DNA of 64,000 bases from Branchiostoma floridae. Its lineage: Eukaryota > Chordata > Leptocardii > Amphioxiformes > Branchiostomatidae. The notes below the pieces were generated by a model that made no database searches, had not been told where the DNA came from, and was given only the letters and a program-made list of their open reading frames with translations. The DNA is taken from assembly GCF_000003815.2 (NCBI RefSeq), contig NC_049980.1:19550348-19614347 (forward strand), read 5' to 3'. Positions within the stretch are counted from its first letter, which is position 1; each line of letters begins with the position of its first letter. Position numbers and translations under genes: made by a program. Of this stretch, positions 1-58,159 are shown in pieces.

Positions 1-398
1 AGCGAGTGAGTAAATTAGGTCTCACTTGTTTGTTTCTGTTACATGTTTCAAACCTCACTTCAGGGTTTCTCCACAGTTCCTAACAAAGGAGGGTGGTTTC
101 AGCTGTGTTTCCCTCACAGTACAAGATGGAGGTCTCACTTCAATCTTAACAGTTTAAAGCAGGGAGAAAGTTGCACTTCTTTGTCTCTTGAGCTCCTTGC
201 CAAAATTAGGTCTAGCTACCCACTTCTATCAAGTTTGCAGTCATGAAAGGTCTACATTTTTCTACAGTTCCAAGCCATGGCGTCCTCTCTATGTCTTTTC
301 ACACTTCCACCTGGGAGAGATGTCTTGCCTCTGCTTCTTCTGTAGCTCCAAATGTCATCTAAGGAAAAGTGTCACCCTGTATGTGTGTTTCTTATCAG
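1..398 (+). other. Intron upstream of Homer alternative exon
   Basis: Non-coding stretch before the first recognisable Homer exon. Bases 6-11 read GTGAGT, a good donor, so bases 1-5 may be the last bases of an upstream exon; the EVH1-coding part of the gene would lie to the left of the window. A pyrimidine-containing acceptor ends at 398. I see no other gene here. Confidence 0.5.
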
Positions 399-707
399 TT
401 TCTAGCCAAGTTCCAGGAAGCCAAAGAGTCAGCCAAGCAAGAGGTTGATCGCATCCGTGCCAGGAATAGCCCAGGCACGCCTAGATCATCCCGACAGAGC
501 CTGCAGCAGAAGGGAGAGAAGGCTAACGGTATCTCACCACCAGTGCAGCATGGTAGCACTGTGCCCAAGGCTCCAGGGACACCTCAAGAGACACGCAAGG
601 CAAAGGAAAAGCAGCAGAGTGACATCACATCTGTTCAGTCAGACGAAATCACTACAGAGCCTTCCAAACCTAAGGAATCCAATCAGGAAGAAGAGGTTGA
701 TAACTAG
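399..707 (+). CDS. HOMER: Homer alternative terminal exon (short isoform)
   Basis: This exon begins in phase 0 after the acceptor at 397-398 and runs to a TAG at 705-707 (102 residues). It opens with FLAKFQEAKESAKQEVDRIR, which resembles both the post-EVH1 helical segment of Homer proteins and the next exon (FIEKFQDAKQSARQEVERIR, from 1323). The remainder is a Ser/Pro/Lys/Glu-rich, probably disordered tail ending EEVDN. Homer proteins scaffold metabotropic glutamate receptors, IP3/ryanodine receptors and Shank; long forms multimerise through a C-terminal coiled coil, while vertebrate Homer1a stops before it and acts as an uncoupler. Splicing of the upstream EVH1 exons to this exon instead of 1323 would give such a coiled-coil-less form. 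That use is inferred. No canonical AATAAA is seen before the next exon, only variants such as AATACA near 912. Confidence 0.7.
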   Translation, partial: FLAKFQEAKESAKQEVDRIRARNSPGTPRSSRQSLQQKGEKANGISPPVQHGSTVPKAPGTPQETRKAKEKQQSDITSVQSDEITTEPSKPKESNQEEEVDN

Positions 708-1322
708 TACATTGACTAAGACCAGTACTACATTGTAGATATTCCTGAACTACTCACAACAGCAACTCTCGTGCTGAGTTAATATAATGGTTAAACTGTT
801 CTTCAATAATATGAACCTTTGTAGTTGGAGTCTTTTCCTGTTACCAATAAGGTTACCCTGTACTTTCATTTGTATGGTCACAAATTAAGACTAAATTTCT
901 GAATAGATATTCAATACACACATACAGTACATTTGTACATGTGAATGAAGAAACTTTGTACAATCAGATGAATATACAGGGTGGCCTTATAACTAGACTA
1001 ACATATCTGACTTTCCCATCTTCTGAGCTTTAGGTCTCATGTTGCAGTTCACTGCAGACACTGTGGTGATGGTGGTCTCTTTTTGCTCTGACTCAAACAT
1101 ACTCCTAATAGATTATTCAAAGTAGCTATGGCAGTTGCACTAACATTATTGATGAAATCACAGAAGTGTGGGCATATTTTCTAGTTACTATGATTACCAT
1201 GCAATGTGCTGACACTGTTACAATGTTTTGTTGCAGATAGTTAGTTCTTCCTTACATAGAAAGTGTCAGAGTTGATTAAAGAAACTCTATATCACATTAA
1301 CATGTGGGACTGTTCTCTCCAG

Positions 1323-4300
1323 TTCATTGAGAAGTTCCAGGATGCTAAGCAGTCTGCACGACAGGAGGTGGAGAGAATCCGCGCCCAGTCGGGAGGCAGT
1401 ACACCACAGACACCTCACACACCACAGAAAATACCAACTGTCAACGGTACAGCTACCTCACAGGGCTCAGGTAAGGGATACTGCAGCTGGACTGAGTTTT
1501 GTTGTGTGTAGAGGTGTTAAATTCATAAAGTCTGGGGGCAATTTAGCTAATTTTGCTTATAGCAGCCCGTGCAACATCCGCCGCCTTCGGCAGGGAGGGG
1601 CCAGTTACAACCCGGACAGCAGTGTTTGTTTCACACAGACTAGGGGGCACTGCACAACAGACAAAAAATTGGTATTGTTAGCAATAATGAGAGTTTACTT
1701 TGAAAATTGAGATCATAAAACCACTGCATTTATTAATTTACTGTGCTATAATGGATGTCATGATTACTGTTGCACTGTCAACAGATATGTTGTAATTTTA
1801 GTGAAAGGAGTCTTAAGGTTAGTCAATTTTTCCTGGACAGGTACATTTCCCCGTGACCATCGGAGTTCCCAGTCCCTCAACCTGCCTCCAGAGAACCCAG
1901 AGTCCTTCCAGGATAGATCAGATGCGAAGAGCGACAATGGGCCGCTGACTGCCGACTCCCAGCTGAAGTATGAGAATGATAGACTCAAGATAGCCCTGGC
2001 ACAGAGGTACATGTAACACAGCACTGTCGTAGTGTTGTTTTTTGTCTTGTTAAACCGTTTAAGTTTATACATTTGTACCAATCACATGTGCAGTCTGCTG
2101 TGCGGTTCGGTGGCATGCACTCAAACACACACATTCACACAGTGTACATACAAGTACATACCGTCACTCACTTTAAAAAGCCCTTGCCCAGGCTCTAGGC
2201 CATGTACGTACTCCATACACACACATTTCAACCTCCTTGCCCCTACATAACATGATCCCTTCTGTTTCTACCCTATTTTTCAGCAATAACACATTTCCAT
2301 TGTGATTTGCTGTAGCTCTGCCAATGCAAAGAAATGGGAGGTAGAACTGCAGACCCTGAAGAACAACAATACCCGCCTGACCACGGCCCTGCAGGAAAGC
2401 ACCGCTAATGTCGAGGAGTGGAAGAAACAGCTGGCTGCGTACAAGGAAGAGAATGAGAGTATGAAGAAAAAGGTATGGTCACTCTATGTGTCTGCATTCT
2501 GAATAACTTTCATACTGAAAGAAGTGGCAAGATTGGTTCGTTTAGTACCATTTTGTGCCATATTCCTGAGCTAGCCTGAACTACTTGGATATAGCATAAA
2601 TCAGCAGGAATGATGTCAGGAAAAAGCCTTCGTATTATAAAGTAAAACTTTTGAATATAAAATGTTATGTAATGTGCAACATTGCTAGTTATAGCTAGAC
2701 AGAAATATTAGCACCATACTGGGAATCACAGAGAAGCACACTCAAAGACAAACATATAGACACACATAGGCAAAGAGACAAGCCAAAGACAATACCTCAC
2801 CCTCACGACTGGGCAGAGTAATGAGATTGTTTGTATAGCTGGAGAGATTGAGTGCATGTCTGAAAATCACTGTTGCCTTTCATGCATGCATTGTTGTAAC
2901 TAATATTAGTCTCTCACTCTTGAAGCAAAATGCCATATGAAATTTGTCTGACGCCCACCCAGGGCAAACATTGTGCCACAAGGACTTGTACTTGAAGAAC
3001 AAACATAAAAAAACATCGCTCAGTTACTAGCCTGTCAGATCTGTTACTCCCCATCTTGTGAAGTTTGGATGACATGTGCTTGACAGCTATTAGTACTTCT
3101 GTCTTGTGGGTCCACACTACTGTGAATTGTGAAACATTAGTGGTACATGTAGTTTTAGTTTTAGCACTTCACAGCATATTCATCCCGAGTATGTGTTTTG
3201 ATAAATTACTACAGAATTTTACAACTGGAAATATCACGAACAAAACCACTGCAAAAGTAAACAGATTTGCAGTATGAAGGTTGAGGTACCAAATGTCTAC
3301 TATGATGTAGTCATCATATAGTTTGGCATCAGACAACCTAAGCCTCTTATGGCCCATTCTGTATTGACATACGTCAGTTTTTTATAGTTACAAGGAAGCT
3401 AGCAATACCATGCTAGTCCAGGGTACAGTTCCTGTAACAATACATGATATTAAAGCACTCATGCTGAGTGAAAAATGCCCCTTCTTGAATGGACATAGAT
3501 TTTTATCCATATGAAGTGCAATGTACTTACATTTTCATGGGGTCTAGTGATTTTTCCCTTCAGTGCTGTAGGAAAATCTCTATTCCTTGAATATTCAGTG
3601 ACTTATCCATGTGCCCTCATTAATATGGACCATTTCCTGGGTTGTAGACCATTTTCTTTCCTGAAACTGTCAACAGAATATCTGCACATTCTACCACATT
3701 CTCTGTGTGAGGTGTTTTTGCCTAGATGTAAGTGTTCAAGGAAGTTTGAAGGCCTGCAAGTATCATAGATGACTGCTATCACATTTCAGTAATATTATTT
3801 GTTTGTCTTCCTTATATTTGCTGACGGTTGAAAATTGTACTTAGGTGTACATGTGCTAATAGGTCTGTATGTGTATGTTTGTGTCCTGGTTAATGAATAT
3901 TTATTACTAATGTTTTTATTTCATCTGGCTGATTTTATCAAAAGGGATAAAGCCAAACAATGAAGGAAAGCCTACTAGAGAAAGATTCAAAATGATGGAA
4001 ATAAGTGTAGAACAAGGCTGTTAAGATGTTACTTTGACTGCCTGTTGCATTTTTTCTTGCCGTAAGATGTATTTTGTTTGACTAAACACACCTGTGTGTT
4101 TTTTTGTAAATGATCTGCTACAACAGCACATGTTCCACATAAGTGTATGTAGGGCTTATATAATACTGTTTGGGTTATATTTTGACAAACTGCACCTTTG
4201 TATTGTATTTCAGTCTTGAGTATTTTTGCCGTGTTTGAACTGTTTTTCTTTAACAGGTTCTAAAGATGGAGGGAGCAGGTGTTCAGGATCAGATGGATGC

Positions 4301-6554
4301 AGTTCTGATAGAAAAGACTCAACTTGCTGAGGAGGTGGAGAGACTCAAGACTGCTGGTCAGGAGAAAGACAGGGTATTAAAGATGCTGTCAAATTTCTTC
4401 ATAATGATAATTTGCCGTAGGAATTTCACAGAAGTTACAACAGGACAGATGTTGACATGGATTTGCAATAACCCTTTCCATCACACAACTACCACTGTCA
4501 CAAGAATGTGTTGACATACTGATAGTCCTATTGTACCATTAATGTGACAATGCCTGTAAAGAACAAAGACTGTGTTTGAAAGATTGATATTATAAGCCTC
4601 TACGTGTAGGTCAATGGCTTCCTAGATGACTTTGTAGTTTACATGTTAGCTATGGATACAGGGAGGGATGGGATAAGACCAACTCAGCTTAGTGGGAAGA
4701 AAATTGAATATTTTTACAAAAAATAATATATATTTTACTCGATTATATAGATTTTTGTCTGAAAATCTGGAAAAGCATTTTAGAATTAGTATACAACTTT
4801 ACTAAAATAAAAAAAGGTTATTGTTTTATGGAAACAATCTTCTATTAAATTTTTTCCAGGTACTGCAGTACATTTGGTTTTGCAGAATTACCCTGCACAA
4901 TGTCATGTTGTGTGGGTATATTCTGTATACATAAGTGGGGAAACCTGACAAAGTGTTTTAGTTAAGGCTGTTTCAGAATGAATCTCTTAGAGTTTCCTTA
5001 TGTGTTTTCCTTCTTAGGAATTGGAAAGATTGCAAGAAGAAGTTGAAGCCCTGAAAATGAGAGATGCCAAGAACCAAGGAATCCAGCAAAGACTTCTGGT
5101 ATGTTAGCTCTGTTTTGTTTCCATGCCGTGTAGTGTTCTTTGAAGTACAAATGTACAATGATTTCACAGTTTGGTGTTCTGATATTCAAGTATCAGATAC
5201 CAAAACCGGAAGTTCCACTGCTGTATCATAACAAGCCACTAGGGGGTCCTGATCATTTCCAGATCTCCAGACCTACTCACCTACAAAATATCAATACAAT
5301 CCTTCCAGGCATTCTCAAGTTATGTTGTTTATCCACCAAAACACAACCTTCTTGGCGAAGGTAAGAATACAGCAAAACACACAAAACGTAAGAAAAAGTA
5401 GTCACAAGCACAATCTGTGTACATTATTGATGTACATTTTGTTCTGCAAACAGCCCAATAGGGCCCTGTTTGAGAATGTTGCCCTAGCATAAACAAGAGT
5501 CCGACTACATGTTTTTGGCAAGGAAGGGATGATAAGCTTATTTTACTTGATGGGAAAGAAATTTTTGTAGACAGTCTTTCAGTCTGTCTGGTTGATATGC
5601 TTTGTTGTAATATTATCTAAAATTGTCAATGTTTTTCACTGATCTGTCTGAAACTATTAAAAAATTCATGCCATTTTTAAGACAGACATGATTATTAAGT
5701 TCAGAATTGTTAACTAGAGAACTGCCATCAGTGTTGCCCTCGTATCCAACAACTGTAATTCTAACGGTACAGAGGCTAAGATGTTGCTCTTTGACGCCCC
5801 CATGCAGCCTGGGATTGTGGTGCAAGAGTCCCCTGTCGTTGGTGACGTAAGTTGTTCTCCTCCATGAACAACAAGTCATTTCAACATGAACTCACCATAC
5901 CACCCCTGTTTTTCTCCCTCAATGAATGTTAAGTTATTACAGCACAATACTCAACCACCCCCCTGCATTCCAGCAGTATTGGTATCTCCCAAGGGCATAG
6001 ACTTCTTTATGGATTCAGTTGCATGCTGGGTAAGGGTGGCAGAGGGGCAAACAGCATCATCATGGTGACAACATAGACCCATGCATGCACCACATACTAG
6101 TATGCACTGTCATGGTGTAGTTTAGTTTGCCCCTTGCATTATCCATAATGCCCACATCTCCCAGCAGGCAATAGGATTCATAAAAAGTTACTCTCTTTCT
6201 TCCTCAGTTTTTTCAAAGTGACCAGGCTCAGGCTTACTTTATTATCTACCCTCTCACAAACTTAATCTGGTCTAGATGAATGGTGTATATTGAGTTTTCA
6301 TGTACAGTACCCGCTCACAATTGTTGTTCTCCCGTCAGACTTGTGAGCAGGACAAGCGTGACCTACAGCAGAGAGTGTCCACTCTGGAGGGCCAGCTGGA
6401 CACGGTCCTGTGCGACCACAGGCGAGACGCGCAGCGCGTACGCGACCTGGAGCAGCAGATCGGAGACAAGCTCCACGAGCTGACCGTCCTCCACCAGCAG
6501 CTGGTCACCGTCACCGCCAGCAACAACAGCGAGGAGACGGAGTTTGATGCCTGA
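1323..6554 (+). CDS. HOMER: Homer scaffold protein, C-terminal part (long isoform)
   Basis: Exons by splice sites and phase: 1323-1470, 1841-2006, 2316-2472, 4257-4373, 5018-5098 and 6339-6554, giving 294 residues plus TGA, all joined in frame. The diagnostic block is KWEVELQTLKNNNTRLTTAL, then QESTANVEEWKKQLAAYKEE, almost the same as the vertebrate Homer segment just before and into the coiled coil. Following exons are heptad-rich coiled coil (ELERLQEEVEALKMR; DLQQRVSTLEGQLDTVL; LEQQIGDKLHELTVLHQQL), matching the C-terminal tetramerisation region. The EVH1 ligand-binding domain is not in the window, so the CDS is partial at its 5' end. Long Homers link mGluR, Shank and intracellular calcium channels at synapses. 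The long 3' UTR is AT-rich; the first canonical AATAAA I noticed is at 8462-8467. An optional exon at 5775-5846 is listed separately. Confidence 0.9.
1551..1646 (+). repeat. Interspersed repeat, copy 1
   Basis: About 95 bp, containing CTTATAGCAGCCCG, AACATCCGCCG and GGGAGGGGCCAGTTACA, is repeated in the same orientation at 19481-19575 with scattered substitutions. It lies in a Homer intron. Class unknown. Confidence 0.6.
5775..5846 (+). CDS. Possible 24-aa cassette exon of Homer
   Basis: Between the last two Homer exons lies a 72-nt open segment flanked by AG (5773-5774) and a strong GTAAGT donor (5847). It would insert AKMLLFDAPMQPGIVVQESP plus VVGD in phase 0 without a stop. The prolines would interrupt the coiled coil, and the polypyrimidine tract is weak, so it may be a rare cassette or a chance open segment. 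Vertebrate Homers do have small in-frame inserts, but I see no resemblance to them. Confidence 0.25.
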
Positions 6555-9500
6555 GGGATTCCTCTGTTGCCTAGCAACAGACAACATTGAGAAACATGGG
6601 ATAACAGCTTACTTGTAAACATTCATTCAATATATTGGCAAATCAGTTGTTGTATCCCACAGCTTGCACCATTAGTTCTTGCCATTTGTGAAGGAAAGAG
6701 GACAAAGTTGGAGCATATAACTGCACAATAGGGCTATTGCAGATATACAAGAAGATAACTAAATGTGTTTGAGTGTAGAGGTAGGGTGTGGATAAAGAAT
6801 ATTGCATTAATCAGACTTAAGCATGGAAATCTCATTAACCAATTTCTGGACTAAAATTTGTGCAAATTCAGGCAGGAAAACATGCACCATAGAAAAAGTG
6901 AACATCATTACATGGTGCCCCTATAGTCACCAAGACAGTCATTTGTTGACACCACCTATTCCTCCCATTATACTTGGATGACATGGATGTCATGGATGAC
7001 AGATGAGAAAATATATACTTAAAGCAAAGATGTAAGTTTTTTCCAGTATTTCAGCTATAAGTATGCCATATAAAAGGTTCTGAAACAGTTGTGAAAAGTT
7101 GAAGACATCAAACTTTTGAAAAACTATTTGTACAAATCACATGATATACCTAGTGCAAAATTACATGGATATAGTCTGGAAATTAATTCTTCTACTAGTT
7201 GAAAAGAATATATAGTACGTGTAGTAAGTGTTAGATTACTAACAAATCACAAGTGAACACCCACCTAAGCTGTATACTATAGGTGTTGCTACAACAGCTG
7301 AAATAACCATATTTTTAAAACTTTTGTTTGGTAACATCTTGCTTTTATGTTTTAACAAGTTGCAGAGTGAAATTGTTCTCTATGTGCAGTGTTATTAATG
7401 TCAGTTATGTGAATAGTATAACACTTTATGATGTTTAAATGACTTTATATATTTATATACAATCTTAAGTGGAAGTGGTAAGTGTACGAGATCTGTGGAA
7501 GCTTTTAAAAAGTGTTTTCCATTTTTTGTTGTTGTTTTGTTGTTTTCATGAGGGATCTCATGTGACTAACAAATTACTCATATTGATCTGTATCAAAGCC
7601 TGTGCACAATATAAGTGATCCTGATATTGCCAGATATGTTATGGGCCTTGAGAATGTATTTTTGGATGGTACCCATCAGCACTATCATGTAATTTGAGTT
7701 GAAAATGATAGACTAGACTTCAGGCATAAGATTCAACAGACTGTATTTGTATCTTATACCCATTTTTACACTCCTCCTACCTATTCTGGCTTGACCCAAT
7801 GAGGATATACTAGTACAGTTTGTAGACTGAACCCATAGCAATGGCCAACTCTGTCAACATGTAGAAATGCAAGATAAAAGTTCAAACATAGAGATGCCAA
7901 CATTTGAAGGACATGCAGCTGCTCTCTTTCATTAATTCTACCACTAATTGCCATTCTCTTATTGGTTGACCTGGTAATTATAATGGAAGTCAGATTGGTG
8001 CATCATTTGTCCTATAAGTAATTCAGTGGACAGCAAAAATTGCCACGGTTGAGGTATTCAAACATGTCCAAACATGCTAGATATATGTTACAGGCAGTGA
8101 ATGCAGTGAATTTACATTGTTGGAATACATTTAAATGTTTCCAAACATGATGCATGTGACCCAATGATGCTGCTGATGTAATTGGAAGTTGATCTATTGA
8201 TATTGAGCTGCCAACAAAATTGATGCATTTGCAAATCTGAGTCTTAACATTACTGTCATTAGAATATTCCCCCTTGTAGTAAGACATGCATACTATTATT
8301 GCTTTCTGGATGGAATCCCCTACTTCTGATTCCCTTATAGTACTACATATAAAAATACTCTGCATCAAAAAGCATCAACATCATGGTTGTGAAATTCCCC
8401 ATGTGCAGAGACGCCAGTAGTCTAATTGTGCCTTGTGGGAACTGTGAAGGAACTACTACATAATAAACTTCCCTAGTAGTATATCAAATAATATATGTAC
8501 ATGTAATAAGTCATTAAGTAAGCAGTTCCAAGTGCACATGTGCATGCATGAGCCATTGTGGTATATGGTCAAAGTATAAGGTTTGTAAACAGTTCCTTGT
8601 CTAGACGTGTTTTCCACCTCAAGCTAACATTTGAGCGGTCTTAACTTCTGACCTCACCCACAATCTCATGTGAGATGGCTTATAAAATGATGCTATCAGT
8701 AAAACTGCAGCTTTCAGGACTTCCATCAAAAGATGCCAAACTCAGTTATTGCCAAAAGAAGAGGCTGTTGGGCTTCCTGAATATTGTTTAAGAATTGCAT
8801 TCTTCTAATTTTAAGTGCCAGTGACAAGCAGTCAAACCTTTTTGATGGGATGGTGTTATTATTATGTTGTCAAGTGGGAAGTTTATGTTTCTAATCAAAA
8901 TATGCTTTAGAACAGCGAAGCTGAAGTTGGCAGATATTCCAATTCTGTTAATATTAGCAGATATTCTGTTAATTATTCTGATAATTTATAGTGTCAAATG
9001 GAATTTTTGGCCATATTGTCTTTTGCAGTGCATGCTGCTTAACAAGGTGGAAACTTTATTTTATCCAGGGAGATATTTTGTTTTTAAATTAACATTGATA
9101 AGAGTTTGTTTTAATGATGTTAACATTGAAGTTTATGGTTCTTGTATTCATTAAGTTTTGTCTAATTTTGTGTTTGCCCACTGATGGTCATCATAAAATA
9201 TTAGCTGAAAATTAATATACTGAGAAATAATGCGATACTGTAACAACATATAACATAGTGGGAATGTCATCATGTATGTTACTGACAAAAGGAACATTGA
9301 ACGGTTTGGGATGTTTAAAGTTTATGCAGTGAATATAACAAGATATGGTAACAAATTGCTTAAAAGACTGCAGCTTTTCTTACCTTTATACATCCTCTGA
9401 TACATTTTTGTGTGATTATTTTCAAATGTCGAAAGCTAGAACCGTTGTTTTCGTATGGGATTTGGAGTTAACAAGTGAGAACACCTCTAAGAACGTCGCT

Positions 9501-38359: not shown

Positions 38360-41300
38360 ATGGAGCGATTTTTGCTGTTTCTGCTTTTGTTGGCGACTAT
38401 GTTCAACAGCTCCATCCAAGGAGGTATGTAGGACCTTCATGTAGGCTAACGTTGTATCATCACAGGCTTCAACTGATTACTGAACAGCAAAAACGCTCGT
38501 TAATATGCTTCATCTGCTATATCTGCATCTTTGAACACTTACAGGGCGTTGTTTGAACATTCTCTTATTAATGGCATTCTAAGATACCACTGAATCATTT
38601 TCTGATGGTAGAGGAGCATGGGATGCTAAGATAACGTTATCTTTAGTGCTACATTGTCCTCGTCTGTCCAAAAGCAAATAGCAAAATGTGACGTCGGCTT
38701 AAAAGTGAACTTCCACAAAAAAGCATAACATCTAATTTCTTGAACTGCACTCTCATTTGGTAATAGTATCTGAGACTGAGATGGGTTCGCGTTTCACAAG
38801 ATCTACCTAATTGCGTCATAGCTTTATACCTGCTATCAGTGCGTGCTTCGTGGCACGTTTGTATGTGGATGGACAGCATAACTTTCAAAAAGCCTTGAGG
38901 GATTGTATTGATATCTGATATGTGATTAGGTCTTCATGAGACCTTGAAACGATAAGATTTTGCGCCCCCTAAAAAATTCAGATTTGATTTCTGGAGTTCT
39001 GGACATGCTACGGTCGTGATTCTTTAATGGTAGATTGGCCTTGGGGCAGAGAGTAAGTGGTGTAGATTTGGGAATTGGGCCCCTTGTGTGTAATTGTAGG
39101 AGCTTTATTAGTTTCAGATTTTGAAGGAGAATAACTAAAAAATGGATAGATGAATCATCATGGTCTATGATATGCGGATAGCTTAAGTAATTCTTGATAT
39201 GATTGCATAGCAATTCTGTTAATTGAGAACCTAATTTGCACAATTAATGGAGAAATTTCATATACCCGCTCCATTAAATGATATGACTATTTGAACATGG
39301 ACAATAGACAAGTACATTTTTTTTACAAATGATTCAATCAATGAATAACTAACATGAGAACATTTCAATCAACCTCTGGGGTCAGATACCTGCACCTACC
39401 ACAGCTGTATTATGTTTGTGTCTGTCAACGTGCTAAGATTAGGCTTCATTCTGCCAATTAACCCCCTTGGTCAGATCCATGCACAGCGCGCGCAATAGCA
39501 GGTCTAGCAGGACTACCAGAACCGTGCTGAGAGTATTGTACACCCACCGGTAGGGCTGTTTTAATTCTTAAAGGACATATTGGGTGTCTTTTGGGGCAAT
39601 ATCATAAAGGTTAATACAGTTGAGCGAAGGCATGTTTGAAGCGGAAAGGGCAATGGGGCTTCGGCGGGAACTCTTTAGGTTTTTTGGGTTCTTTTTTTCA
39701 AAATTTAGTTTTGAGATCAAAAAGTGCATTGGACTGCAGCGGATTCAGAACTAGAACGTTTCACTCAAGTCCTTGGTTTCAAGTTAAATAAACATCAGAC
39801 AGGTGTTTTAACAATATCTTTTTTTTATTATCTAGTGAAGTTACCTTGACAGCTTAATCAATTTTGAGAAACATTGGGGTTTGTGATTTTGCTTATCTCA
39901 TACACACAACTCTAAAAGCAGCCAAACGTAATACCTAAATATAAACTTGAACTATGAGCTCGATGTTATTGACAATGGTCCGAGCTTTTTGGCGATACCT
40001 TAGAGGCAGAGCTTTCTTCACAAGATCCAAAACAGTAAGGAGACTTATTTTTGGTCACTCATATCTGCACTGATACTCAACAGTTCGTCGTTTTACATAT
40101 TATTGGAAAACGAGAAGTGTCACTTGACGATACTTTTGTCCATATATATTGAGACGATTATAGGCACTGAATATGGGACTGGGCCGTAAAAAGCGAAGTT
40201 CCCACATAGTGTTTGGCATTGGCAGGGACAGCTAGCTTCCGGCGTATGAGAAAATAATTTGAGCACGATTACAACTGGTTCTTTGTTGTGTGTGATACAG
40301 ATAATGTATTGGGGTCATTGTGGTGAGCAGAATTGTCGTTTGGAGTTGTCATTGGAAGTTTTGTGACATATATCTAATGAATAAAGTTGTTATTCTTTTT
40401 CTTAATAAAACCATGATTAAGTCAGTTTCTAGTCACAAGCATATTGGGGTTATTTTTAGCTCCAATATGTCTTGACATCAACACATTGAAAGCATTGTCA
40501 CCAAAGCCTCTAAAAGTGTCCAATTATTTAGTGTTTTAAAATTCAAATTATCCCGTCAGGTTCTAGAAAAAATATACAAGTCCTTTATACGTTCATTGTT
40601 AGAATATGCTGACATTGTTTGGCACGGGTGCACAATTGAGGAATCAAATCTCGTCGAAAGAATTCAGTATCACTGCTCCCTCATTGTAACCGGTGCAATA
40701 AAAGGGTCATCATATTCTGCCACTCGTAAAGAACTCGACTGGGAGTCATTGTCCGACAGGCGTCATATTCACCGCCTATTACTATTTCACAATATTGTTA
40801 ACGGACTGACTCGTGAATACCTTACCACTTTACTTCCTTATGCAATTACGGTGATATGTAATTATGATTTGAGAAACAGCAGAAACTTGAGACCTATTAA
40901 ATTTTCGACTGACCGCTTTGGAAAGTCCTTTACTCCATATTCCATCACTGCTTGGAACAACTTGGACTTAACTCTTCGTGCACTCGATTTCTCGAAATTT
41001 CGAGAACATCTTTTTAAAACGATACGCCCTCCCAAAATCAGCCATTTCAGCTTCGGGTCTCGACACTCTTGCATTCTCATTTCACGACTTCGTATGGGCA
41101 CCTGCAGCTTGAATTATAGTCTTTTCACGCGGGGTCTTGTGTCAAGCCCAGCCTGCAGCTGTGGGTGTCCATTCGAAACTATTTCACACTACCTTTTGCA
41201 CTGCCCTACCTATGATTACCAGCGCTCAGTTCTCATCGGCAAACTCTCTGGGTTACTTGTACATATACTTGATTTCCACAGTCTTGCAAATAATGCCAAA

Positions 41301-44300
41301 GAAATGTTGATTTTACAAGGTAGTTCTTTCTGCTCCTTCAATGTCAATTGCAGAATTATAGAAGCAACACATGCGTACATTGCAACAACAAATCGTTTTT
41401 AGATTCAAGTATAATTCTTTGTTTTTGTTTTCTACTCCAGTAAGGGAGATCGACTCACGCACACTGTTCATACATATGTAATTATCTATTTATTATTGTC
41501 CTGTATAATTTCTTATTTTCAATTCTTGTATAAGTGGCGGCGTTAATATAAGTTGAATGTAACTTGAGTCCGCCGTCACTTAGTCCTCGTCCGTTTATTT
41601 GTATTCTTACACGTATTTCAATAAAGAAAGAAAAAAAAAAGTTGTTATTGTTACAGGTTGCCCGACAGTCCGTATTTCCGGGTATATCTACTCCACGCGC
41701 CAGTCTTCATGGGTGACAACCTACACCATGAACAGACAGCTTCACGATGATCGCCCGGTGTACAGATCCTCAGGTGGAAACTACCTGTACTTCGATCGAT
41801 CAGACATCACTTGGAATGTCGGTCGTCGTGTGGGGAGTCAAGTAGTGGGGCTGTACGTGGTCGACTTCAGCACGTATGCAGACAGCATATCCGGGACCTG
41901 GTATCAGGCCTTCTCCTATGGCCTCGGTCACATTCCGAACCGTTATATAAGAGCCAGTTGCGACAGTAGGTATCACGTTTTCTTGTTTTTTTTGGCACCC
42001 TGTGACGCCCTCAATTTGAAAAAAAAAAACAGATATAAGAAATCAGCCAAACATTAGAGAAAAACATGACTAAAAGACATACATTTGAACCTACCAAAGA
42101 ATATCATATGATTCTAAGCGATTTACAAATGTAACGTTATATGCTTATAGCCTATCAAAATTCAGGCATGTGATGGGGGATTGATGCCGATCTTTTCTCC
42201 TGTGACCATACCCTAGCTTTGTTTGCGACATTTCCTAAAAATAACACTACGCCAACTTTCATAGTTCTGAGGTCTTCTGACAGTTATCCTTATAAGGTTC
42301 CGGTTCGGAATCCCTAAGAATAAGACGCAAATCAGAGGTTGTCTGCATAGTTTTGGCTCTAGATTTTTCGGCTATCGCTTTAGAAGTCTATAATCTTTTA
42401 TACTTCTCCAAATGCTTGTTGTTCGTAGCGTTTTATGGTGTCGGAGATTTGATCGTGCGGCGAACACTTCCTGGTATTAATAGTGCGCGCGATAGCGGTA
42501 AAGCGTTTCGTCGCCTGATTACCCAGATCGTGCGTTCTATGTGCGTTTTGGGTGTTTTAGCGCCATCGGAGCTCGCGGAAAACGTATCGGATAACTTTCT
42601 TTTTCATTTTTACTCAGTATACAGAAGAAATCTTGACCTTCATTGCCATATCAGTCATTATCCCAGGAAAACTCATTTTTTTCCGTGTAGCGGCCTGTAA
42701 AAAATGGCCCCAAATTAGCAATTTTTGGATGAAAAGCTTATATTTTTGATGTTTTTTACCAAAAATAACATTTCTACAGAAAATGTCCAATGAGTCTGTC
42801 GGTCAGCGACAACACACACTTTTTTTATCGGAAACATTGAATTATCCGAAAAACGATGTTTTGAGAAGCGCTAGTGCTTTTCTCAGAGACAGTCAAATCG
42901 GCCCCAAATCCTAAAAAAAACTCCGAACCGGAACCTAAAACTAAGGACGTTGTATAAACAGAAAACAAGGAAAATCTACTACAGTAATTGTAGCAGCCGA
43001 AATCCCCGAGATATGCACGGTTCGCATATCCATGTGTTCAACACATTCTTGGGAAATCCTGGATACCATTTTATAAAAGTACATGGTGGAATCACATGAA
43101 TTGACATTACACACTATTTTTTTTAAAATACAGATCCAAGTGCAAGAGTCAACGGACAATGGTCCAATTGGGGTAGCTGGTCCTCGTGCACGAGATACTG
43201 CATCTGTGGCAACGAAACCTGCGTGGCGGAGACTGTCACCCGACATCGCCGATGTATCACTCCGCCTCCCCGGAACGGCGGCCGAACCTGCACAGGGAGC
43301 TCCTCGAGCACGCGGGATTGTGACTGTCGGGGTGAGAAGCATCATACTAGCGTGATGGATCATTATAAGCTACCGGTAGATAGCTACCGGTACGAAGATA
43401 CCGGTACAATAGTCTAGCGGTAGAGTGCACTGATCGATTAATAAATAAATAGAGAAATACAAATGATCACAACGCTTCTCCATCCACGAGTCTAGCATTG
43501 CATTCGGAGGGTCACGGGTTCAGAACCGAGTCATGTGCCAATAAGGTCTCATTACACAATTTCGCCGTCCCATAGGAATACAGCATAAATATCACACAAC
43601 TTCTATGCCCGCAAATCCAATTGAAAAACAGTATTTTGGGAGATTTTGACGACGCCTCAGGGGAGTCGTCAAGTGGTATATATTGCATTCAGTCTGCAAA
43701 AATTCTAGGAATTGCACAGGCATTTCCACAGGAATGCAGTATGCTGGGTATGCAAGCCCTCCCCCCAAATCTGTTCCAGATGTATCTCTGGTATGCAATG
43801 GTGGAATGTAGGTCACATTTGCTCCCTGGAGGATTGTCCTTTGAAACTAGACAGGGGACTCTGCACAATGGATCACGTTGTCTTGGTTGTTATGTTATGT
43901 TATGAAGGATACATTTTCTTTCCTAGAGCTTGTTTCAGGCATACGCACAGGCAGACAGGAAATACTTCTGTAGTGCTTAGCTGTAGGTTAGATCACTGGT
44001 AGACCATTGTGCTGTACCGGGGATAGTACATTTCTGCTGGCTGTAGGTTTATGTTACAGGTGGGATAGTATATTGTGCCAGGGATAGTGCGACAGGGAAG
44101 TTCCAGTCTATTTCTGATTTGAGCTTTATTGTTGTACCCTCAATCGTCGTCATGGCAATAATACATTTTTATTGCCAGTCTTGTTTTGCTTTCTATTGCA
44201 AGTGCACTAGTTCGTTGGGCAATAAAAAAAAGTGACACCCAAATCTAGCCGACTCAACTATAGTTATCGGATTTCAAACTGCGAGTACCTGATAGCCGCC

Positions 44301-56278: not shown

Positions 56279-57646
56279 TCAAGGCCACATCCCCATCATG
56301 CCCGCATTTACCATAGCCCCAGCAGGCCCCCCAATCACGCCCCCATTTACCACAGCCCCAACGGGCCCCCCGACCACACCCATACCTCCAACAGCTCCTC
56401 CAAACATACCCACACCCATACCTCCAACAGGCACACCCATACCCCCAACAGGCACACCCATACCCCCAACAGGCATACCCATACCCCCAACAGGCACCCC
56501 AACCACACCCATACCCCCAACAGGCATACCCATACCCCCAACAGGCATACCCATACCCCCAACAGGCATCCCAACCACACCTATACCCCCAACAGGCCCT
56601 CCAACAACACCCATACCCCCAACGGGTCCTCCAATCGCACCCATAACCCCAACAGGCCCTCCAACCAATCCTACAGCCCCAACAGGCCCAACAACTGCGC
56701 CACCCAGAGTGTGTGCGCCACCCAACGCTGGCTTTGGGCTGGCAAGCCGTTTGTCCCCTTGGCCACTAGTAGGCCTATGAGGTATGTCACAAGAGCCTCC
56801 CATAAGAGTCAAGCTTCTGTGTACATCGGCAGCTTTGGGTCTGCCGCGGTAGTTGACACTGAGCATAGACAGACACAGCTTTTTAAACGCCCCGTTCTTT
56901 TGGCTGGTTAGAAGGTGGGCAGAGAGATTGGGAGGAGGGTTGTTAAGCAGTGCTCTACCGATGGAGACTGTGGCTCCCATTCTGCCCTCAATGAATGCAG
57001 CTATCGACCTTCCCACTCGGCGCATGTCAATCATGGCCACAAAAATCACGCCCATTGAGAACACGTCACAATACATTTTGTAACCCAATGATGTAAATAC
57101 TTCAGGTGCCATAAAGAACTCAGTACCACACTGCGAGGCTAACATGTACTTTGACAGGGAAACGTCTCCAACCCCACAAACTTTAGCCAATCCAAAATCA
57201 GCTACCTTAACAACTGGGTTGCCATTGCTTCCAGTAAGCAGTATGTTATCTGGCTTGAGATCTCTGTGGACGATGTGGTTAGCGTGCAGAAAGCTGACTG
57301 CGTCTGCAATCTGTGTCATAAGTCGCAATTTCACTGAGGCTGCCATGCGAAGCTGCCTCAAGAGAAAATCATTCAGCGTCCCCATTGAACAATATTCTAA
57401 CACCAGCCACAGACTGCCATCCATCACTTTACCCTGGAAGCACTTAACAATGTGCTCATGAGACTTATCTTTCAGTGCAATCAATGGCTCCACTTCGTTT
57501 TGAGCACATGCTAGCTGTCTGTAACTCCCCAGTTTCAACTGCTTCATAGCCACAGTGCCCCCGGTGGTGACGTGCTTGCCTTTGTAGACCTTGCCAAACG
57601 CTCCTTCTCCTAGCAACGTCCCGACTTCATACTGCCCCACTCTCAT
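56279..57646 (-). CDS. Protein kinase, PDIK1L/STK35-like, with Pro-Val-Gly-Met repeat tail
   Basis: One coding exon, 455 residues from the ATG at 57646. All kinase motifs are present: glycine loop GEGAFGKV (13-20), VAMK Lys35, HRDLKPDN (HRD 127-129), DFG at 150-152 and MAPEV near 179-183. KVADFGLAKVCG, then YMLASQCGTEFFMAPEV, closely resembles the PDIK1L/STK35 group; an active Ser/Thr kinase is expected. From about residue 305 a low-complexity tail is built of GGPVGGMGVVG- and PVGGMGM-type units, ending GMMGMWP. A minus-strand acceptor at 57664-57665 (TTTACAG) and a donor at 58262 suggest a 5' UTR exon; in that joined frame a stop precedes the ATG, supporting this start. The opposite strand of the tail gives a spurious Pro/Thr-rich frame. 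Confidence 0.85.
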   Translation of the reverse strand: MRVGQYEVGTLLGEGAFGKVYKGKHVTTGGTVAMKQLKLGSYRQLACAQNEVEPLIALKDKSHEHIVKCFQGKVMDGSLWLVLEYCSMGTLNDFLLRQLRMAASVKLRLMTQIADAVSFLHANHIVHRDLKPDNILLTGSNGNPVVKVADFGLAKVCGVGDVSLSKYMLASQCGTEFFMAPEVFTSLGYKMYCDVFSMGVIFVAMIDMRRVGRSIAAFIEGRMGATVSIGRALLNNPPPNLSAHLLTSQKNGAFKKLCLSMLSVNYRGRPKAADVHRSLTLMGGSCDIPHRPTSGQGDKRLASPKPALGGAHTLGGAVVGPVGAVGLVGGPVGVMGAIGGPVGGMGVVGGPVGGIGVVGMPVGGMGMPVGGMGMPVGGMGVVGVPVGGMGMPVGGMGVPVGGMGVPVGGMGVGMFGGAVGGMGVVGGPVGAVVNGGVIGGPAGAMVNAGMMGMWP

Positions 57647-58159
57647 CTTGCAATTGGATGGCACTGTAAAGAGAACAACTGTCAGTTGTTACCATTATCT
57701 AGACAAGAAACTTGTGTTTTCGGTGCTGTTTCTGTGGTTAAATTTGTTCTTTCGTTCGTTTGTTTGTATGTTGACAAGGTAACTCAAAGGTTCTACATTG
57801 CAGATCCTGTTTCATCTCATTCTTGTCCGGTACAAAGCCAGTGTCACTGAATGTCCCACTAGAGGACACGGACATGTTAATAGATATAAGTACCAAACCT
57901 AGACTCTTAGTCAAATTTATTAGGCAGCAAAATCTTTATTCCTACAGTAACGTCGGGCAGTCTTATTGCAATTGTGTTCCATATCTACTGTAGTCGAAAA
58001 TGAAAGTAGTTTTTAGATTTCAAACTCACATGTGAATTTTATCCTAACTCTTATTACTAGAAACATGACAGGGACGTGGACCGTGTATCAAGATATGTAG
58101 TTCAATCCGAAACTGGCGCATGATTATCGCAATTATGCACCAGCCAGGTGTGCGTGACC

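Follow-up and report, generated by a model that had tools for sequence, protein, structure and literature searches.

The Homer exons and the domain they encode

The DNA analyzed here is a window of 64,000 nucleotides (C2:19550348-19614347, on the genome's own contig); short coordinates are window positions throughout and those with the prefix C2 are contig positions. Near its start, on the + strand, the window carries the 3' part of a Homer gene, which codes for a synaptic scaffold, and among its exons are two that are adjacent, homologous and both entered in phase 0, which is the arrangement of tandemly duplicated exons. The first, copy 1 (399-707), follows the acceptor ...TTATCAG|TTT and comprises 102 codons, for 102 amino acids, and an in-frame TAG at 705-707. 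It opens with a helix (FLAKFQEAKESAKQEVDRIRA, 399-461) that closes the EVH1 domain and then runs for a further 81 residues up to the stop in a tail (462-704) that is rich in Ser, Pro, Thr, Lys, Glu and Gln, has a coding-like composition, and contains neither phenylalanine nor coiled-coil-coding sequence ahead of the stop. The second, copy 2 (1323-1470), is the exon of the long form; it follows the acceptor ...TCTCCAG|TTC and reads FIEKFQDAKQSARQEVERIRA plus a short linker. On a simple human-type matrix, which was not fitted to lancelets and from which all splice-site scores given here derive, the acceptor of copy 1 scores higher than that of copy 2 (6.4 versus 4.8), and copy 2 ends in a strong donor, CAG|GTAAGG (11.5), which it leaves in phase 1.

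From copy 2 the long form continues through five further exons on the + strand: a linker exon at 1841-2006, across which the frame of the joined exons is maintained, an exon at 2316-2472 in which the putative coiled-coil-coding part begins (SSANAKKWEVELQTLK...), two more exons of that part at 4257-4373 and 5018-5098, and a final coding exon at 6339-6554 that ends in the stop TGA. The six exons form one open frame of 294 residues without an internal stop, and this contains SSANAKKWEVELQTLKNNNTRLTTALQESTANVEEWKKQLAAY, which appears to resemble a segment of Homer1. Scans of the long form against Pfam and the PDB gave no match to a Homer coiled coil, and the same scans of exon-only pieces returned nothing useful. 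Two further open stretches were seen along the long form. In the coiled-coil part, 5775-5846 is open (AKMLLFDAPMQPGIVVQESPVVGD), has phase 0 at both ends and is followed by a donor-like GAC|GTAAGT (6.9), and it is possibly an optional exon, with an acceptor that scores -0.9. If copy 2 were read past its donor at 1470, 13 more codons (GKGYCSWTEFCCV) would be added before the open frame ends at 1511, so that a read-through form of the Homer1a kind, additional to the form from copy 1, is possible.

The EVH1 exons themselves lie upstream of the window. Residues 1-116 of Homer1, from a sequence confirmed against PDB 1i2h over residues 1-163, were used to search the genome from which the window derives, and three matches were obtained. 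Two are on the same strand as the gene in the window and upstream of it: a first EVH1 exon at C2:19545280-19545447, which ends ...VDGSK|gtgaga, and a second at C2:19547590-19547727, which runs from GCC (AIINST...) to ...ELAK|gtagtg and ends in phase 0. The third, at C2:10951924-10952061, is a second version of the second EVH1 exon. A start-codon exon was not found among the matches to Homer1 1-116 in the genome. Since the second EVH1 exon ends in phase 0, either copy can follow it in frame. The window opens immediately past an assembly gap of 1877 N (C2:19548472-19550348, window -1876 to 0), which separates copy 1 from the second EVH1 exon and which a second version of this locus, at C2:10950385-10957973, bridges without N.

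When the two EVH1 exons were joined to copy 1, the product matched the Pfam WH1 model at 8.6e-30. The match covers residues 3-105 of the product, extends to position 110 of the 111 in the model, and takes its last eight residues (98-105) from copy 1. The same product matched Homer1 (1i2h) at 5.1e-51 versus 8.1e-08 for the best Ena/VASP-type chain, and with copy 2 in place of copy 1 the values were 5.8e-51 and 1.5e-07, respectively. The N-terminal EVH1 (WH1) domain is thus of the Homer type. Because the WH1 match ends inside copy 1, the intron before the two copies cuts the EVH1 domain shortly ahead of its end.

Elsewhere in the window, the - strand has an open frame of 469 amino acids at 56282-57688, of which residues 20-289 form a protein kinase domain (Pfam Pkinase, 4.9e-49); the frame runs on into sequence that, read on the opposite strand, is a simple repeat. 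On the + strand, 40476-41399 is an open frame of 308 amino acids with a weak match, under the curated cut-off, to zf-RVT (reverse transcriptases), and it is probably a piece of a retroelement.

Homology, age and constraint of the two copies

Across the six reading frames of the window, the pattern F..KFQ.A is found twice, once in copy 1 and once in copy 2. The local alignment of the copies has a BLOSUM62 score of 95, which none of 5000 shuffles reached (the best shuffle scored 62), and within the helix 43 of the 63 bases and 15 of the 21 residues are identical. The initial annotation had described two Homer exons that share an entry phase and a helix motif, the first with a stop of its own and the second leading in frame into the exons for the coiled coil, and on each of these points it proved correct. 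A third copy was not found in the window by the six-frame pattern search; in the stretch that separates the second EVH1 exon from copy 1, read from the second version of the locus, no six-frame match to either helix scored above 22.

Of the 20 differences between the helices, 4 are at first, 2 at second and 14 at third codon positions; silent change is saturated (pS 0.889), as against a pN of 0.162 for amino-acid change. In neutral simulations in which 20 random changes were placed on copy 2, at least 15 of the 21 residues were retained in one of 20000 runs, the mean being 8.5. Saturated silent change together with retained residues indicates that both helices were long held at the protein level. 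The flanks of the two copies are unlike: for the 150 bases upstream 231 of 500 shuffles scored as high, and downstream 94 of 500 did. The duplication is accordingly old, and a recent segmental duplication is ruled out by the same comparison. Against rat Homer1, the helices of the copies match at 8 and 9 of 21 residues, compared with the 15 that they share with each other; although few residues are involved, this suggests that the duplication postdates the split from vertebrates.

In the genome we found one full Homer locus and one partial second version, the latter being a 7.6 kb piece (C2:10950385-10957973) that lies 8.6 Mb away with a gap of exactly 100 N on each side. It is 98.6% identical to the locus over window positions 1-3609 and 94.0% identical over -4344 to -1886. 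This piece is probably a stray haplotype contig or, less probably, a partial duplication. Its version of the EVH1 exon carries a change from F to S in the conserved GLGF stretch, which is one of the two amino-acid changes in the long form mentioned below.

The second version bears on whether copy 1 is a remnant, that is, a once functional duplicate that is now decaying or unused. All four differences in copy 1 between the two versions are in the tail and change the amino acid (A-S, A-T, R-C and P-H), with none silent, as would suit a remnant; across 201 codons of the long form there are two amino-acid changes and eight silent ones (Fisher P 0.015 versus the 4:0 of copy 1). This ratio counts against a strong constraint on the tail at that scale. 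The absence of a recognisable strong poly(A) signal, described below, would also be in keeping with disuse. However, if one change in four is silent, four changes without a silent one have a probability of about 0.32; such a pattern is not unusual in a disordered tail under loose constraint and does not alone demonstrate decay. Moreover, copy 1 is open over 103 of 103 codons in the second version as well, with no frameshift or new stop (in a frame of 114 residues), its helix is identical at 63 of 63 bases between the versions, and constraint on the helix lasted long enough for its silent sites to become saturated. We therefore regard it as quite improbable that copy 1 is a remnant.

Coding content of the copy 1 tail and the end of the exon

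The tail of copy 1 was scored with a codon model trained on 392 codons from other exons of the same gene. Over 462-704, frame 0 scored 0.566 per codon and the remaining two forward frames 0.086 and -0.155, and the frame 0 score was reached by none of 1032 intron windows, which overlap and so are not independent tests. Composition-preserving shuffles gave a weaker result, with 9 of 5000 reaching the score of 462-704 and 45 of 5000 that of 531-704. The G+C content of copy 1 (0.52) is close to that of copy 2 (0.54), as against 0.36 for the region past the stop (708-1322), a candidate 3' UTR and/or intron, and 0.37 for the introns used. The composition of copy 1 is thus coding-like right up to the stop. 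The tails of copy 1 and copy 2 resemble each other weakly, at a level that 51 of 5000 shuffles attain. A relationship of the copy 1 tail to the linker or tail of Homer1 was considered and is unsupported, given that 2413 of 5000 shuffles reach the similarity. The sequence SPGTP in copy 1 is reminiscent of SPLTP, the 'P-motif' of Homer1, but the match is not significant.

These results also bear on where copy 1 ends. Copy 1 could be an ordinary mutually exclusive exon that is left at 528 and joined to 1841, in which case both forms would be long and what distinguished them would be the EVH1 end and the linker; use of the exon in both ways is also possible. A weak donor-like site is present at the required place (ACG|GTATCT, 526-534, last exon base 528), its exit phase of 1 is the one needed for in-frame joining to 1841 and is like that of copy 2, and the homology of the copies by local alignment extends to 528 (KANG versus TVNG). 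Yet this site scores 3.3, a value equalled or exceeded by 73 GT sites in 1-9000, and a leftover ancestral donor would look no different; at the corresponding position copy 2 has a GT as well (score 2.5). The coding-like composition, furthermore, does not stop at 528: the segment beyond it (531-704) scores 0.432 per codon, which none of 1229 overlapping intron windows reached (40 of the 1229 were open), and the G+C content stays raised to the stop. Exit at 528 in place of termination at the TAG is for these reasons an unlikely account of copy 1.

Alternatively, copy 1 could act as a poison exon: past its stop, a donor in 708-1322 would be joined to copy 2 and the RNA would decay, so that less Homer would be made. 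Donor-like sites occur at 940 (5.4) and 1303 (4.9), and there is no AATAAA past the stop. An exon read just for its stop would not be expected to conserve the residues of its helix while its silent sites became saturated, and the coding-like composition of copy 1 reaches exactly to that stop. We consider this role distinctly unlikely.

Signals for RNA ends and splicing were searched for in the same region. AATAAA is absent from 708-1322 (0.23 expected by chance), and ATTAAA occurs once (0.28 expected), at 1275-1280, 43 bases upstream of copy 2, as the sole hexamer of either kind between the stop and copy 2. Common hexamer variants number eight in 708-1322 versus two to six in nine equal-length pieces of intron or 3' flank from the same gene. 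Since these counts are near background, a poly(A) signal was dropped as support for a terminal exon. It is a matter of speculation that cleavage at the ATTAAA at 1275 would fall within copy 2's acceptor region, making the choice between the copies exclusive. No donor in 399-1322 scores above 5.4; the lack of a strong donor was likewise dropped as support for a terminal exon, because the donors accepted for this gene include sites with scores of only 2.0 and 5.0, so that the lack says little.

A candidate short Homer and its relation to known systems

We consider that copy 1 is a tandem-duplicated alternative terminal exon, from which an EVH1-only, probably dominant-negative candidate Homer would be made, and we give this reading a probability of roughly two in three. 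The claim of the initial annotation that an alternative exon yields a short form stands as far as the Homer identity, the duplication, the stop and the apparent nature of copy 1 as a retained coding exon rather than debris are concerned; the use of the exon for a short form is probable. Tandem duplication of the Homer exon encoding the end of EVH1 would have produced copy 1, and splicing would join the preceding EVH1 exon to one copy or the other. With copy 2 the product would be the multimerising long form. With copy 1 it would end in 102 residues from that exon, lack the coiled coil and amount to some 200 residues (199 without the start exon). In the genomic sequence, the stop at 705-707 lies ahead of 1841-6554, and EVH1 without a coiled coil is thereby encoded by the gene of the long form itself. 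Inclusion of both copies in one transcript would be useless for the long form, as copy 1 has a stop. By analogy with the short Homers of vertebrates, the lancelet candidate would bind the ligands of long Homer and be unable to cross-link them, and it would consequently compete with the long form and uncouple Homer complexes. It may already be present in existing lancelet gene models.

Homer1a is a textbook brake on glutamate-receptor scaffolds, commonly described as an activity-induced device of vertebrates. We suggest, tentatively and at somewhat less than an even chance, that a dedicated EVH1-only Homer evolved in lancelets independently of vertebrates, by exon duplication and not by intron read-through, so that the switch between monomer and multimer would have arisen twice in chordates and would perhaps be activity-regulated in both. 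The helix identities (15 of 21 between the copies versus 8 and 9 of 21 with rat Homer1) fit such a convergent origin and weakly favor it. If true, an uncoupling Homer would be a solution found more than once, by way of different gene architecture, and whether it arose together with vertebrate-type synapses or serves older calcium-signalling tasks could be put to the test in an animal that has a single Homer gene. The partnership of EVH1 with PPxxF predates bilaterians (PMC1876816).

The contrast drawn in the initial annotation with vertebrate Homer1a, which arises by reading into an intron and not by exon duplication, agrees with two sources (PMC7656758, PMC2663561). There, the terminal exon of Homer1a is described as an internal exon elongated at its 3' end, into the intron and after the linker, and that of Ania-3 as an elongated version of the next internal exon (PMC7656758), the choice between the two being made by poly(A) sites at the ends of the elongated exons; Homer1a is reported to have 186 amino acids, of which 175 are shared (PMC2663561). 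Homer1a is dominant negative and cannot multimerise (PMC4376867, PMC7235277), and vertebrate short Homers in general lack the coiled coil, form no multimers and keep the ligand binding of EVH1 (PMC4376867, PMC7235277, PMC11237882). Judged against these accounts, Homer1a (Vesl-1S) and the lancelet candidate are alike in having EVH1 without a coiled coil and in coming from the gene of the long form. They differ in that Homer1a uses an internal exon elongated into the intron, whereas in the lancelet candidate this part would fall to a distinct exon, a duplicate that has an acceptor of its own and is placed at the end of EVH1. Activity-dependent induction is a feature of Homer1a; the lancelet form is a candidate from genomic sequence. 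Ania-3 (Vesl-1M), on the same accounts, resembles the lancelet candidate as a short form with a terminal exon of its own; that exon is, however, an elongated internal exon, whereas copy 1 is a duplicate of the exon for the EVH1 helix.

The position of the intron suggests concretely why lancelet Homer would have come to a terminal exon by duplication. As the intron lies inside EVH1, a terminal exon within it would have to re-encode the end of the domain, and this need to rebuild the EVH1 end would explain the use of a duplicated exon rather than a few read-through codons. In the open-licence literature searched we met no duplicated domain-completing exon with a stop that switches a multimeric scaffold to a monomer, and no paper on the Homer EVH1 domain in amphioxus; among papers on Branchiostoma, Homer or the postsynaptic density, none was on this gene by title.

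Alternative C-termini from duplicated exons are well represented in other genes. Among human events involving tandem duplicated exons, 77 of 236 swap C-terminal regions (PMC9741552), and in Drosophila pip homologous terminal exons that are used in a mutually exclusive way occur in clusters (PMC9013439). Going by such accounts, the lancelet pair is like tropomyosin (TPM1/Tm1/lev-11) and Drosophila pip in that adjacent homologous exons lead to alternative C-termini. It is unlike them in that one of the copies would end the protein ahead of a whole domain, the coiled coil, and the swap of one exon for the other would therefore switch the protein from multimer to monomer.
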